Below are positions 34,699 through 39,748 of a stretch of DNA of 64,000 nucleotides, one piece after another (within the stretch, counting starts at the first letter, position 1; each line of letters opens with the position of its first letter). Below the pieces are notes generated by a model. That model searched no databases. It was not told the DNA's origin and saw nothing but the letters and a program-made list of their open reading frames with translations. Made by a program: the position numbers and the translations under genes. Origin of the DNA: Halomarina ordinaria (GTDB taxonomy: Archaea > Halobacteriota > Halobacteria > Halobacteriales > Haloarculaceae); NCBI RefSeq assembly GCF_030553305.1, contig NZ_JARRAH010000001.1, positions 496,001-560,000 on the forward strand, read 5' to 3'.

Positions 34699-34950
34699 TC
34701 AGCGTTTCACCTCGACCCGGCCGCTCAGGTGTTCGCGCGCCTCCTCCGCGAGCGCGATACGGTCGCGGACGTCGTCCTGGCGCAGTTCGTACTCCTCGCG
34801 GGAGAGCTCCCCCAGTTCGAACAGCAGCCGGTTCTCCTTCAGTTCGTCGCGGAGTGCCCCGACGTCGTACAGCTCCTCGATGGCCATCGAGTGGAGGACG
34901 TTCCCGATGGCGACCAGCGGGCGCAACAGGAGGTCGTCGAGGATGAACAT
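34699..34950 (-). CDS. gvpG: Gas vesicle protein GvpG
   Basis: The 83-residue protein MFILDDLLLRPLVAIGNVLH fits the GvpG family: a short N-terminal hydrophobic stretch, then a charged helix (LKENRLLFELGELSREEYEL) predicted to be coiled. GvpG is an essential accessory protein. The start overlaps the gvpF stop in a TGATG arrangement, indicating coupled translation. Confidence 0.93.
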   Translation of the reverse strand: MFILDDLLLRPLVAIGNVLHSMAIEELYDVGALRDELKENRLLFELGELSREEYELRQDDVRDRIALAEEAREHLSGRVEVKR

Positions 34951-35582
34951 CAGCGCTGGGCCCCGATCTCGATGTCGACGAAGTTGTACGGCGCGTACGG
35001 ACCGGTGTACTGGACCGTCACCTCCTCGTCGTAGTCGGCCTCCAGTTCCTCCACCGCGATGTCGAACGCCTCGCGGTCGGCGCGCTCGACGAGGTACGAG
35101 CGGTTGAACGCGAGGCGGTCGCTGAACAGGCCGTTGTCGACCTCCCCCTCGCTCACCGCCGACAGGCGCTCGGAGGCGTCCTCGGCGAGCGCTTCCCGGT
35201 CGACCGTCGAGTCCTCCGGGACGATGCACTTCACCCCCAGTTCGACGGTGCCGTCGAGGTCGCGGAGCGCGCGCGTGAACGCCGGGCGCGCCTCGCGCAG
35301 GACGCTCTTCAGCGTCCGGCCGTTCTTGAACACCATCCCGAAGCGCATCGGGACGAGCGTGAGCGGGTCCTCGCCGGTGATGACGTCGCGGATGACGTCG
35401 TCGTGCGCGCGCGTGTTCTCGTCGGTCTCCTCGGGTTCGAGGTCGTCGACGTCGGTCACCACCGCCGAGAGCGGGCCGTAGTCGACCGTGTAGAGGCGCT
35501 CGCCGCCGTCGACCCCCTCGACGCTCCGTTCGAGGTCGGTCTCGTGGGTGACGCCGTAGACGTAGAGGTGGGCGTCGCTCAT
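34950..35582 (-). CDS. gvpF: Gas vesicle protein GvpF
   Basis: The 210-residue protein MSDAHLYVYGVTHETDLERS is a GvpF/L family member with LVPMRFGMVFKNGRTLKSVL and the terminal VQYTGPYAPYNFVDIEIGAQ. GvpF binds GvpA and is thought to prevent its premature aggregation and to sit at the wall's gas-facing side during assembly. I chose the ATG at 35582 because upstream codons are Arg/Pro-rich and unconserved. It is the first gene of the minus-strand gvp operon, divergent from gvpA. Confidence 0.94.
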   Translation of the reverse strand: MSDAHLYVYGVTHETDLERSVEGVDGGERLYTVDYGPLSAVVTDVDDLEPEETDENTRAHDDVIRDVITGEDPLTLVPMRFGMVFKNGRTLKSVLREARPAFTRALRDLDGTVELGVKCIVPEDSTVDREALAEDASERLSAVSEGEVDNGLFSDRLAFNRSYLVERADREAFDIAVEELEADYDEEVTVQYTGPYAPYNFVDIEIGAQR

Positions 35583-35753
35583 CGCCGTCGACCCCTGCGC
35601 CCCCCGGCGCGTACGCGTGGGACGGTAGGCGAGCGGGGCGGGGACCACGACCGAGAGAGAAAGTAGCGACTCATGTGGGGTCTCTCACTCGCTATTGCGT
35701 CTTAACTCTGGGGGCAGAAAGGATAAGTAGCGCAGTGGAGTGGGGACTACACG
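35583..35753. promoter_or_regulatory. Divergent promoter region between gvpF and gvpA
   Basis: This 171-bp region must carry both gvp promoters. For gvpA, GATAAGTA at 35722-35729 lies 25-32 nt before the ATG. Two short inverted pairs interlock: GAGAGA (35653-35658) with TCTCTC (35681-35686), and TAGCGA (35664-35669) with TCGCTA (35689-35694). The activator GvpE and repressor GvpD that act on such promoters elsewhere are not encoded in the window. Confidence 0.5.
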
Positions 35754-36032
35754 ATGTCCAGCCAACGACCGGGTACATCTAGTCTGGCAGACGTGCTCGA
35801 CCGTATCCTCGACAAAGGTGTCGTCATCGACATCTGGGCGCGGGTCTCCATCATCGGTATCGAGATCCTCACCGTCGAGGCGCGCGTCGTCGTCGCGTCC
35901 GTCGACACGTTCCTCCACTACGCGAGGGAGATGTCGAAGATAGAGATAGCGAGTCAGTCCGGCGAGCTAGAGGACCTGCAGGACCTCGACCGCTCGACGA
36001 CCCCGCTGGTCGAACCGGCCGGCTCGTCGTAA
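35754..36032 (+). CDS. gvpA: Major gas vesicle structural protein GvpA
   Basis: The 92-residue protein carries the nearly invariant GvpA core [20 protein letters not shown] followed by [20 protein letters not shown] and [14 protein letters not shown]. GvpA forms the ribbed wall of the gas vesicle. The core ends near residue 62, and the remaining tail is acidic and variable. It is the first gene of the plus-strand pair gvpA-gvpO. Confidence 0.97.
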
Positions 36033-36058: not shown

Positions 36059-36541
36059 ATGAGCGAGGCAGAATCGACCGACGACGGCGCCGGTCAGTGT
36101 CGAGCACTGACGGGCGACGGAAGCCGCTGTGAGCGCCCCGCCCGAGAGGACGGGTTCTGCTACCAGCACGACGAGGAGGACCCAACAGTGAGCGAGGCCG
36201 ACACGGACGACGAGGAATCGAGCGGCGAGAACGCCGAGAGCGACGAGGACGAGTCGGACGGCGAGAGCGCCGCCGCCAGCATCCTCGAGGTCCGCGAGTC
36301 GGTCATCGAGGTGGCCCCCGACCTCATCGGGCGGCCGCTCGACGGCGTCTCCGCGGTCGAACAGCCCGGAGACGGCGACGGCTGGCGCGCGAGCGTCGAG
36401 GTCATCGAGCGCCGGGCCGTCCCGGACTCCTCGGACATCCTCGGGGAGTACCACGTCGACCTCGACGGCGACGGCACCGTCACGGGCTACCGTCGCGTGC
36501 GGCGCTTCCGCCGCGGCGACACCGACGACGAGGAGTTCTAA
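36059..36541 (+). CDS. gvpO: Gas vesicle protein GvpO with N-terminal Cys/His motif
   Basis: The C-terminal ~90 residues (ILEVRESVIEVAPDLIGRPL, WRASVEVIERRAVPDSSDIL, GEYHVDLDGDGTVTGYRR) match GvpO, required for vesicle formation in Halobacterium. The N-terminus carries CRALTGDGSRCERPAREDGF followed by CYQHDEE. This is a C-x8-C-x9-C-x2-H motif like those of small metal-binding domains (DUF5763-like). An acidic linker joins the two parts. The gene follows gvpA by 26 bp in the same operon. The added motif is the unusual feature. Confidence 0.9.
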   Translation: MSEAESTDDGAGQCRALTGDGSRCERPAREDGFCYQHDEEDPTVSEADTDDEESSGENAESDEDESDGESAAASILEVRESVIEVAPDLIGRPLDGVSAVEQPGDGDGWRASVEVIERRAVPDSSDILGEYHVDLDGDGTVTGYRRVRRFRRGDTDDEEF

Positions 36542-36556: not shown

Positions 36557-37153
36557 TCACGGGCGCCACGCGACCAGTTCTTCGAAACGCTCCCAGGCGG
36601 CGCGCTCGCGTGCGCCGGCGCAGGCGTCGACGACCGACTCGAAGTAGCGGATGCGCTCGCGCAGCACCTCGTCGTCGTACCCCGCGACGCCGAGGCGGGA
36701 GGCGGCCACCGTCGCCTCCACCACGGCGGCGCGCGCGCGGTTCGTCGTCGGGACGACCCGGCGTTCGACGGCCGCCTCGACGGGCACGAGTTCCCACTCC
36801 GTCCACTCGGTGTCGCTCTCCTCACCCGCGTCGACGACTGCGACGGTGACGTGCGCCCACGCGTCCGCGCCGTCGAGGACCGGGGCGTCCTCCTCGCGCA
36901 CCGAGCAGGCCGCCTCGACGAAGTCGACGGGGTCGCGCGTGAACTGGACGTACCCCTCGCCACGCTCGCGGAAGTTCCGCCACGTCCGGGTTCGCCCCCA
37001 CGTCCGGGCGGTCACCGGGCCGCCGTCCTCGGGTGCGAACAGGCCGAGCGCGGCGACGTTCCAGCGCTCGTTCGGGCCGAGCGTCGTCACCACCGACTCG
37101 GTGACGCCCGCGAGCGCGACGGGCCACCCGGCGAGGTCGTCGGACCCGTTCAT
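36557..37153 (-). CDS. DUF447 family protein
   Basis: The 198-residue protein starts MNGSDDLAGWPVALAGVTES and continues with the DUF447 features RWNVAALGLFAPEDGGPVTA, TWRNFRERGEGYVQFTRDPV and the C-terminal helical part VEATVAASRLGVAGYDDEVL. The fold is a flavin-reductase-like split barrel, so FMN binding is plausible. The family occurs in methanogens, haloarchaea and methylotrophic bacteria, and its biochemical role is not settled. Its start overlaps the stop of the CitG-like gene by 4 bp (last gene of the cofD operon). Confidence 0.85.
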   Translation of the reverse strand: MNGSDDLAGWPVALAGVTESVVTTLGPNERWNVAALGLFAPEDGGPVTARTWGRTRTWRNFRERGEGYVQFTRDPVDFVEAACSVREEDAPVLDGADAWAHVTVAVVDAGEESDTEWTEWELVPVEAAVERRVVPTTNRARAAVVEATVAASRLGVAGYDDEVLRERIRYFESVVDACAGARERAAWERFEELVAWRP

Positions 37154-37989
37154 ACGGGGAGGCCCCGTTCCAGCGCGACGAACAGCGCGCCGGCGGTGAG
37201 GTCGGCCGTCGTCCCCGGGTTGATACCCTCGGCGACGAACGCCTCCGCCAGCGCCTCGGGGTCCGTCTCGCCGTCGAGCGCCGCCCGTGCCCGCGCGCTC
37301 GCCTCGCGCGCCGCTTCGGGTCCGCGTCGCTTCACGACGAACGTGTCGGGTTCGGCCGCCAGCAGTTCGAGGAAGACCCGCGCGGCGCGGTCCGGGGCCG
37401 GCCCCTCGCTCGCGGTGATGCGCTCGGCCGCTCCGAACGTCCGGGGGAACCCCTCGACCCACTCGCGGGCCACGCCGTCGACGCTCGCGCTGCGCTCCAG
37501 CACGTCGAACAGCGTCAGCCCCCGCTCGCGGATGGCGGGTTCGGCCGCGCTCCCCCGGCGGACGTCGAGCGGTTCCAGCCCGGCGGGGGGGTCAGGGACG
37601 CCCACGTCGACGTGTTCGAACGCGCGGTAGAACGTGCAGGCGTCGTCGACGGTCGTCGCCTCGCAGACGCGACGGACGCCCCCCTTCGAGAGGGCCCCCT
37701 CGCTCGCCGCGCGGACGAGCGGAACGAGCACCAGCAGCGCGCCGAACTGCGTGTTCCCGCCGCGCTGTTCGGCCATCCCGGCGACGGCCCGTTCGAAGGC
37801 CTCGCCTATCGGCCCGTCGCCCCCCGCGAGGCGGAGGCCGGGCGCGCTCCCGACCGCCCCCGCGAGGAAGTGTTCGAACCGGAGGTCGTCGTGGTCGCGC
37901 CGGCGGTCGACGTTGCCCGGCTTCGGCGTCCCGGCCACCTCCAGCAGGAGCGCGAGTTCCGCGTTCCGCGCGTGGTCGCGCCTCACCAT
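37150..37989 (-). CDS. CitG/MdcB-like triphosphoribosyl-dephospho-CoA synthase family protein
   Basis: The 279-residue protein has the family signatures EVAGTPKPGNVDRRRDHDDL near the N-terminus, MAEQRGGNTQFGALLVLVPL and the C-terminal EGINPGTTADLTAGALFVA. Bacterial CitG and MdcB join ATP and dephospho-CoA to make a prosthetic-group precursor for citrate lyase or malonate decarboxylase. Neither enzyme is evident here, and archaeal members probably act on another substrate. The genes on both sides overlap it by a few bases, tying it to cofD, the Dus-like gene and DUF447. Confidence 0.85.
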   Translation of the reverse strand: MVRRDHARNAELALLLEVAGTPKPGNVDRRRDHDDLRFEHFLAGAVGSAPGLRLAGGDGPIGEAFERAVAGMAEQRGGNTQFGALLVLVPLVRAASEGALSKGGVRRVCEATTVDDACTFYRAFEHVDVGVPDPPAGLEPLDVRRGSAAEPAIRERGLTLFDVLERSASVDGVAREWVEGFPRTFGAAERITASEGPAPDRAARVFLELLAAEPDTFVVKRRGPEAAREASARARAALDGETDPEALAEAFVAEGINPGTTADLTAGALFVALERGLPV

Positions 37990-38759
37990 CGGCCGTCGAC
38001 CCTCCCCGGGCGGCGCGCGTCGGCGTCGAACCACTCGTCGGCGGCCGCCCGGACGCGCGCGAGCACGCGCGGGTCGTCGCTCGGCCGCCCGACGCTCACC
38101 GCGTCGGCGCCGTGCCCGAGGTACTCCCGGACGGTCGCCCGGTCGCGGACGCCGTTGTTGGCGACGAGGAAGCAGTCGCACGCGTTTCGAACGTCGGCGA
38201 CGACCGACTCCGCGTCCATCGCGTCGACGTGTAGCACGCCCGCGCCGGCGCGCTCGACCCGACGGGCGAGGTCGGGGAGGTCGACGCCCTCGACCTCGGC
38301 GCGGACCTTCACGCTCACCGTCGCGCCGGCGTCGCTCGCCGCCCGGACCTGGGCGGCGAGGCGTTCGGGACGTCGAAGCAGCGACTCGCCGGCGCCCGCG
38401 GCGCACATCTCCGCCTGCCGGCAGTGGGCGTTCACCTCCAGTATCGCGTCGTGTGCACGACAGACTGCGCCCACGCGCCGGAGCGGCGCAAGTGTCGCGC
38501 TCCGGACGTTCACCGCCGGGCGGAGCGGGACGCCGTCGAGCGCTTCGAACTGGCGCTCGACGAACGCGACGGGGTCGGGGGGGAGGAACTCCTCCCGGTC
38601 GCGGTCGACCATGGCGCGGGCGGCGTCGCGCGTCGCGTCGTCGAGTGCGATACCGCCGAGGAACGCACACCCGGCGTACCGACTCCCCCGGCGCGCCCAC
38701 CCGGCGTCCGCGGCCCCGCTGAGGCTGGCGAGCGCCACGCGGGGGGCGAACTGACTCAT
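37983..38759 (-). CDS. Dus-like TIM-barrel flavoprotein (archaeal tRNA-dihydrouridine synthase family)
   Basis: The 258-residue protein resembles the catalytic barrel of dihydrouridine synthases: [18 protein letters not shown] at the N-terminus, [34 protein letters not shown] and the FMN-phosphate end [20 protein letters not shown]. The Dus active-site segment NxxCP is altered ([11 protein letters not shown]), and the RNA-binding C-terminal domain is missing. It may therefore act on a small molecule rather than tRNA. It overlaps cofD by 4 bp and the CitG-like gene by 7 bp. Confidence 0.78.
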
Positions 38760-39748
38760 CGGACGGCCTCCAGCGCCTCGCGGACGGCGCGCGCGACCCG
38801 CTCGCTGTCGGCGTCCGTGTCGAGGGTCGTGTCCGTCCGGACGACCGGGCGTCCCAGGTCGGTGGGGTCCGCCTCGTCGAGGACGAACGCGTCGGCGAAG
38901 GGGTAGGCCTCGGCGACGCCGGCGGTCGAGGGGTCGTAGCCGACGGCGGCCATGAGCGTCGCCGCCGGGCCGGAGAACACCCGGTCGCCGACGAACGGCG
39001 AGACGACGACGACCGGCGTCGCCGCCAGCGCGCGGCCGACGGCGTCCATCGCCAGCATCGGCCCGAGGCTCGTCACCGGGTTCGATGGCCCGACCACGAC
39101 GGGGTCCGCGAGGGCGGAGCGGACGGCCGCCGTCGGCTCTGCGGTCTCGGCCCCGCGGAACTCCACCTCCGTGACGGTCGGCGCGCCGCCCTCCGCGACC
39201 CACCACTCCTGGAAGTGCATCGGCCCGTCGGGGGTGTGGACGAGCGTCGCCACCGGGTCGTCGCTCATCGGGAGGAGGTCGCGGTCGAGGCCGAAGGCGT
39301 CGGCGAGGAGTCGCGTCGCCTCCGTGAGCGTCCGCCCCTCGTCGAGGAGGCTCGTGCGCGTCAGGTGGACGGCCCGGTCGCGGTCGCCGATGTACATGAA
39401 CTCACCGACGCCGGAGAAGCGCCGCCAGCGCGCGATGTCCCGCCCCGCGGTCTGGCGGGCGGCGGGGAGGTAACGCGCGCCCGCGTCGAGGCCCGCCCGC
39501 TCCGCGATGGCGCCCAGTTCCTCGTGGGTCGTCCCCTCGTCGTCGTCGATACCCCACCACGTCTCCCGGTCGAGGACGCCGCCGTCGAGGAAGAGGACGG
39601 TGTCGAGGTCCGGCGAGACGAACAGGCCGCCGAGTTCCACGTCGTCGCCCGTGTTGCCGACGACGGTCGTCCCCCCCGGCGGGAAGACGTCGGCAGCCCC
39701 CGCGAGCAACTTCGGCGTGCCCGTACCGCCTGCGAGGAAGGTCGTCAT
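38756..39748 (-). CDS. cofD: CofD, phospholactate-type transferase of coenzyme F420 synthesis
   Basis: The 330-residue protein starts [20 protein letters not shown], the CofD nucleotide-binding start, and continues [48 protein letters not shown] and [17 protein letters not shown]. CofD transfers the phospholactyl (or related) group from a GDP-linked donor to the deazaflavin Fo to give F420-0. F420 serves as a hydride carrier in haloarchaea. The gene leads the four-gene overlapping operon. The ATG at 39748 was preferred over one three codons upstream. Confidence 0.95.

Follow-up and report, generated by a model that had tools for sequence, protein, structure and literature searches.

The 64,000-nucleotide stretch of Halomarina ordinaria DNA analysed here (G000:C1:496001-560000; hereafter the window) carries a tightly packed run of four genes, all on the minus strand:

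38756-39748, minus strand: cofD, phosphoenolpyruvate/2-phospho-L-lactate transferase of F420 biosynthesis (TIGR01819, PF01933)
37983-38759, minus strand: Dus-like FMN TIM-barrel protein, 258 aa (PF01207, TIGR00736, predicted structure)
37150-37989, minus strand: CitG-like protein (PF01874, motifs, solved relative 3h9p)
36557-37153, minus strand: DUF447 FMN-binding split-barrel protein (PF04289 and PF20766, predicted structure)

Consecutive genes in this order overlap by 4, 7 and 4 bp, in agreement with the end-to-start overlaps described in the initial annotation. DUF447 is the last gene, with gvpO (36059-36541) convergent at the 3' border, and cofD is preceded by a divergently transcribed gene. 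Two further gas-vesicle genes, GvpL/F (34950-35648) and a GvpA-type gene (35754-36032), lie with gvpO directly downstream of the operon and are likewise convergent with it. The four overlapping genes are real, and their arrangement is not due to chance, because, of 80 named haloarchaeal loci, 78 have CitG adjoining DUF447 and 45 have the full set of four side by side (some of these counts being limited by contig ends or split loci). Among the best 30 DUF447 loci, CitG neighbours DUF447 in 27.

CofD, already recognized as an F420 enzyme, scored 356.6 bits against TIGR01819 in a family scan (cut-off 257; E = 8.8e-107), which places it within F420 synthesis. Across 148 genomes of the phylum, cofD was found in 142, CitG in 141, DUF447 in 140 and the Dus-like family in 93. 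The cofD–Dus-like pair was separated from the CitG–DUF447 pair in 13 of the 80 named haloarchaeal loci, and in Natrialbaceae and Halarchaeum the CitG–DUF447 pair is separate from cofD. Taken with the loci in which all four genes are contiguous, these split loci identify the operon as two modules, cofD with the Dus-like gene and CitG-like with DUF447, and this reads better than the single pathway that had been proposed for it.

The initial annotation had placed CitG and DUF447 families beside tetrahydromethanopterin (H4MPT) genes, a link upheld by methylotroph clusters, methanogen neighbourhoods and a published gene list. Bacterial H4MPT clusters contain genes for beta-RFAP synthase (RFAPS), mch, CitG, fae, DUF447 and MfnB, and cofD is absent from them. 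In methylotroph clusters carried on plasmids by Azoarcus sp. KH32C and Phyllobacterium zundukense, CitG adjoins fae and is near mch, DUF447 adjoins a DUF6513 (MfnF-type) gene, and RFAPS and MfnB are encoded in the same cluster; no cofD was found in these cluster regions. DUF447 appears alongside MfnB, dihydroneopterin aldolase and formylmethanofuran dehydrogenase B in the published listing of a Burkholderiaceae symbiosis region (PMC9088363). The known methylotroph H4MPT/methylofuran cluster comprises mptG/orf4, mch, orf5, orf7, fae, afpA, orf9, orf21 and orf22; its gene order mch-orf5-orf7-fae (PMC3615186) suggests that orf7 is the CitG gene, and all genes of the orf7-containing cluster have been reported as essential for growth on methanol (PMC8141765). 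Haloarchaea resemble this system in having RFAPS, CitG-like and DUF447 genes together with H4MPT one-carbon (C1) enzymes, but differ in that their CitG–DUF447 pair lies outside any formaldehyde-oxidation cluster and adjoins cofD–Dus or Mer–MetE genes instead.

In methanogens, an archaeoflavoprotein of the AfpA type often follows CitG–DUF447; AfpA/DmrX is a dihydromethanopterin reductase. The haloarchaeal pair shares its gene order, its adjacency and the FMN split barrel with this methanogen neighbourhood (MM1853); unlike there, no AfpA neighbour was seen in the halophile loci, none of the 80 giving a match to an Afp/DmrX relative. Given methylotroph H4MPT clusters without cofD, and a dihydromethanopterin-reductase-type flavoprotein as the methanogen neighbour, CitG and DUF447 are not F420 genes. 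That all four genes of the operon act in F420 synthesis or modification is very improbable: it would account for the contiguity with cofD in 45 of the 80 loci, and several further families of the phylum have CitG/DUF447 close to cofD, but cofD is missing from the bacterial clusters that contain both genes, the pair stands apart from cofD in Natrialbaceae and Halarchaeum, and three halophile genomes considered below (G008, G060 and G119) keep cofD in the absence of CitG and DUF447. The same clusters and losses speak against the F420 modification once suggested for CitG and DUF447, while the broader suggestion of a cofactor pathway is supported.

The CitG-like protein matched PF01874 with E = 3e-69 in the family scan but scored only 39 and 31 bits against the CitG and MdcB equivalog models (cut-offs 282 and 272). 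It has conserved PGN, NT.FG and NPG..AD motifs that are common to the methylotroph homologues and largely to E. coli CitG. The archaeal and methylotroph proteins belong to the same fold family as the E. coli CitG/MdcB triphosphoribosyl-dephospho-CoA synthases and have the KPG, NT.xG and PG..AD motifs in common with E. coli CitG; they differ in falling far under the equivalog cut-offs, in the replacement of the HKG motif of E. coli CitG, and in having neither a citrate lyase nor a malonate decarboxylase partner encoded nearby. In the CitG reaction, ATP donates its ribosyl group, which is attached as an alpha-riboside, and H4MPT carries an alpha-ribofuranosyl phosphate on its ribitol; a transferase of this kind therefore fits H4MPT, and we tentatively suggest that the CitG-like protein may be an ATP-dependent alpha-ribosyl(phosphate) transferase of a methanopterin-type cofactor.

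DUF447 was modelled as an FMN split barrel (pLDDT 94.7), the best matches being the FMN-bound DUF447 structures 2iml, 2nr4 (MM1853) and 2ptf. Synthesis of H4MPT needs a reductive opening of the RFAP furanose to a deoxyribitol, a step for which we know of no enzyme; more speculatively, DUF447 might be the FMN flavin reductase that opens RFAP in this way. The proposal that DUF447 proteins form cannulae (PMC13140500) is an annotation guess to which fold and neighbourhood give no support.

The halophile genomes were surveyed for the H4MPT-synthesis genes RFAPS, CitG and DUF447. RFAPS catalyses the first committed step of H4MPT synthesis, and its family (TIGR00144) was detected above cut-off in 151 of 165 halophile genomes, including H. 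ordinaria, and also in H. volcanii. The H. ordinaria protein (C1:262640-263590) scored 161 bits against TIGR00144 (cut-off 113.5) and 176 against the NF040726 equivalog, below the cut-off of 328. Haloarchaeal RFAPS keep the pABA-binding Arg26 and the PRPP-loop (phosphate-loop) region and have Asn in place of Asp19, a substitution with which the Methanothermobacter enzyme remains partly active (sites and activity from PMC6787355). In a tree they group in a clade of their own (100/99), distinct from those of bacteria and methanogens; their motifs are RSG and SSWGP, as in bacteria, against TSG and SSFGP/SSTGP in methanogens. RFAPS relatives include ForT, a C-nucleoside synthase that combines PRPP with an acceptor other than pABA; the acceptor of RFAPS could therefore be another aromatic acid. 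RFAPS and DUF447 matches in 14 control genomes were confined to M. jannaschii, M. acetivorans, S. acidocaldarius and H. volcanii. For Sulfolobus, the title of a work cited in PMC3261824 (ref. B34) describes a modified folate that contains an aminophenyl-tetrahydroxypentane unit.

A 2021 review concluded that haloarchaea use tetrahydrofolate and lack methanopterin-specific enzymes (PMC8305020); it noted that HVO_2628 is about 30% identical to RFAP synthase, yet discounted it, and assigned Mer and Mch of H. volcanii to folate. The H. volcanii folate system and ours are alike in their Mch and Mer homologues and FolP-type enzyme, but where the review gave Mer to folate and HVO_2628 an undefined role, both are here tied to CitG and DUF447. 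Gene content contradicts the statement of the initial annotation that methanopterin is not made by haloarchaea, as the RFAPS family is near-universal and is linked to, and lost with, CitG, DUF447 and Mer. A FolP-type pterin-binding family gene (PF00809) was present in all good genomes (137 of the 165), which indicates that folate is made as well; for the same reason this gene was uninformative as a switch between carriers. Contig C3 of H. ordinaria (240,923 bases) has another FolP-type gene, separated by about 13 kb from a MetF-family gene (C3:63731-78230); the two may mark a separate folate-based C1 island.

Mer is the F420-dependent methylene-H4MPT reductase, and in several haloarchaea its gene shares an operon with the module. 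Halarchaeum rubridurum (L133; two copies, L037 and L038) and H. nitratireducens (L150, Halarchaeum) have Mer-CitG-DUF447-RFAPS with divergent MetE1-MetE2; Halobellus limi (L033) has Mer-DUF447-RFAPS-MetE1-MetE2 next to npdG, H. clavatus (L079, Halobellus) has Mer-DUF447-RFAPS, and a Halobacteriales MAG (L123) has Mer-DUF447-RFAPS-MetE1-MetE2. Most of the Halarchaeum and Halobellus operons adjoin genes for methionine synthase. One of them is on a plasmid, and that of H. rubridurum is duplicated; Mer-(CitG)-DUF447-RFAPS operons may be mobile. The Halarchaeum operons link the CitG-like and DUF447 genes to C1 enzymes, as does the pattern of gene loss.

In the 137 good genomes used for loss statistics, DUF447 and Mer were missing from exactly the same three (G008, G060 and G119), and RFAPS from these three and one fragmented assembly (Fisher P for co-absence, 2.4e-6 for DUF447/Mer and 9.5e-6 for RFAPS, values that ignore relatedness). 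All three are also without CitG but retain cofD, the Dus-like gene and Mch; G119 has only a weak Mer-like match (7.8e-27). Assembly gaps were rejected as the cause of absence: the three genomes are complete, the genes belong at separate loci, and in G060 and G119 the cofD–Dus locus is sequenced through to asd, which is the next gene in G060 and one ORF further in G119, with CitG–DUF447 missing. G008 and G060 belong to one genus and G119 to another, whose other sampled members keep the genes; in family f35, two incomplete genomes scored for DUF447, RFAPS and Mer lack all three. By genus and family labels the losing genomes fall into three separate lineages, and an honest count is two or three loss events in few lineages.

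MetF (PF02219) was found in 44 of the 165 halophile genomes, yet in four of the five losers (G008, G060 and both f35 genomes; Fisher P = 0.018, kinship ignored). G008 and G060 each have a short MetF and a long MetF with a C-terminal MTHFR domain (PF12225). The long forms (L055 1465-3021 in G060, 518 aa; L057 in G008) are the only matches in the 165 halophiles that reach the MetF N-terminus (model positions 7/8-211). MetE-family genes number at least two in most halophiles; G008, G060 and both f35 genomes have one weaker, diverged copy, and G119, which also lacks MetF and Mer, is the only good genome without MetE. Wherever CitG/DUF447 is lost, the methionine enzymes that would use the carrier have likewise disappeared or been replaced. 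On the simplest interpretation, the module provides a methyl carrier for methionine and either gave way to a MetF/MetE route or disappeared together with methionine synthesis. In H. volcanii, a non-saturating transposon screen of 4,100 mutants yielded zero methionine auxotrophs (PMC4300041).

Mch is not supported as a user of the carrier and is not tied to the module, because it is kept in the losers and missing from f31 and f26 genomes that keep RFAPS and Mer. The small f26 genomes (G148, G160, G170 and G177; about 1 Mb), perhaps Hikarchaeia, and those of f31 are without Mch, and most have Mer, RFAPS or DUF447; this content is in line with a Hikarchaeia ancestor inferred to have had only mer (PMC7599335).

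The Dus-like protein matched PF01207 with 27 bits and the MJ0144 family TIGR00736 with 103 bits, below the cut-off of 218.7; its model (pLDDT 95.5) shows an entire FMN-type barrel whose nearest matches are DusC, DHOD B and DPD. A C-terminal helical tRNA-binding domain is absent from the 258-residue protein, whose model stops with the barrel, as the initial annotation had it; the altered active site that it described holds in part, since NAHCRQ replaces NxGCP but the catalytic Cys113 and Lys151 of Dus enzymes remain. The substrate motifs (NAHCRQ, HVDAM and NN) are altered; the MJ0144 and marker 9 relatives likewise keep the Cys and Lys and differ in their substrate motifs. Methanogen Dus-like proteins can bear a methanogenesis marker 9 domain, which the halophile proteins lack. 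In G079, a strongly diverged Dus-like gene with its catalytic-site motif replaced lies directly upstream of CitG (L051 6427-7380). An ordinary tRNA dihydrouridine synthase would explain the retained Cys and Lys, the best fold match to DusC and the NCBIfam family name, RNA dihydrouridine synthase-like, but is a decidedly improbable identity for a barrel without a tRNA-binding domain, with altered substrate motifs, encoded by a gene tied to cofD, given also that dihydrouridine is absent from H. volcanii tRNA (PMC2584109).

Because its gene stays with cofD, the Dus-like protein is a candidate, albeit a somewhat unlikely one, for the archaeal dehydro-F420-0 reductase (CofX), as an FMN barrel that would reduce the enolpyruvyl double bond arising from CofC/CofD. 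The Dus-like gene still adjoins cofD in the three loser genomes and in split loci, DHOD B and DPD both act on activated C=C bonds, and the absence of dihydrouridine from H. volcanii tRNA fits this role too. CofC of archaea can use PEP, and a dehydro-F420-0 reductase has been postulated for archaea with no enzyme yet assigned to it (PMC6450877). Our estimate is kept low by the many F420 makers without a detectable Dus-like copy: the gene is absent from G018, and no copy was detected in many F420-making methanogens. In other methanogens the protein has the marker 9 domain and its gene adjoins CitG–DUF447 instead of cofD, and the real substrate in Euryarchaeota may be 2-phospho-lactate (PMC8498797).

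From the gene families, operons, neighbourhoods, co-loss and replacement we infer a product and a chemistry for each enzyme. CofD, probably with the Dus-like enzyme, would serve F420 synthesis, and the CitG-like protein and DUF447 would carry out two steps towards a methanopterin-type C1 carrier. The RFAPS-family enzyme, encoded elsewhere in the genome, would join pABA and PRPP; DUF447, with FMN, would reduce the ribofuranosyl-aminobenzene to an open-chain deoxyribitol; and the CitG-like enzyme would attach alpha-ribosyl phosphate from ATP. The finished carrier would accept C1 units, Mer and F420H2 would reduce them to methyl, and MetE1/MetE2 would hand the methyl group to homocysteine. We consider it reasonably probable that haloarchaea make such a methyl carrier for methionine alongside folate, with the operon coupling it to F420 synthesis; that C1 units travel on two carriers, with folate serving purines and thymidylate and a methanopterin-type carrier dedicated to F420-dependent methyl supply to methionine, we judge an even proposition.

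This reading is weighed down by the published folate account (PMC8305020) and the FolP-type gene in all good genomes, and by the Asn at RFAPS position 19, the ForT relatives, the independence of Mch from the module, the lack of Afp/DmrX in the halophile loci and the small number of losing lineages. The module could instead serve methionine through a product that is not methanopterin-like, RFAPS, CitG and DUF447 decorating tetrahydrofolate or making another C-riboside cofactor for Mer/MetE. The same co-loss and operon evidence fits such a product, as do folate synthesis by these cells, the Asp19 replacement and the place of ForT in the RFAPS family; we nevertheless regard it as unlikely, because organisms of both domains that make H4MPT repeatedly carry RFAPS, CitG and DUF447, and because the pABA-binding Arg is conserved.

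If correct, the methanopterin-type carrier would overturn the view that haloarchaea swapped methanopterin for folate and would explain why they retain Mer, whose role was called unclear in PMC7599335. For the dehydro-F420-0 reductase postulated in PMC6450877, the cofD-linked Dus-like protein provides a candidate that can be tested. Two uncharacterized H4MPT genes, CitG-like and DUF447, would come within reach in an aerobic host amenable to genetics, where a simple phenotype, methionine auxotrophy, is predicted.
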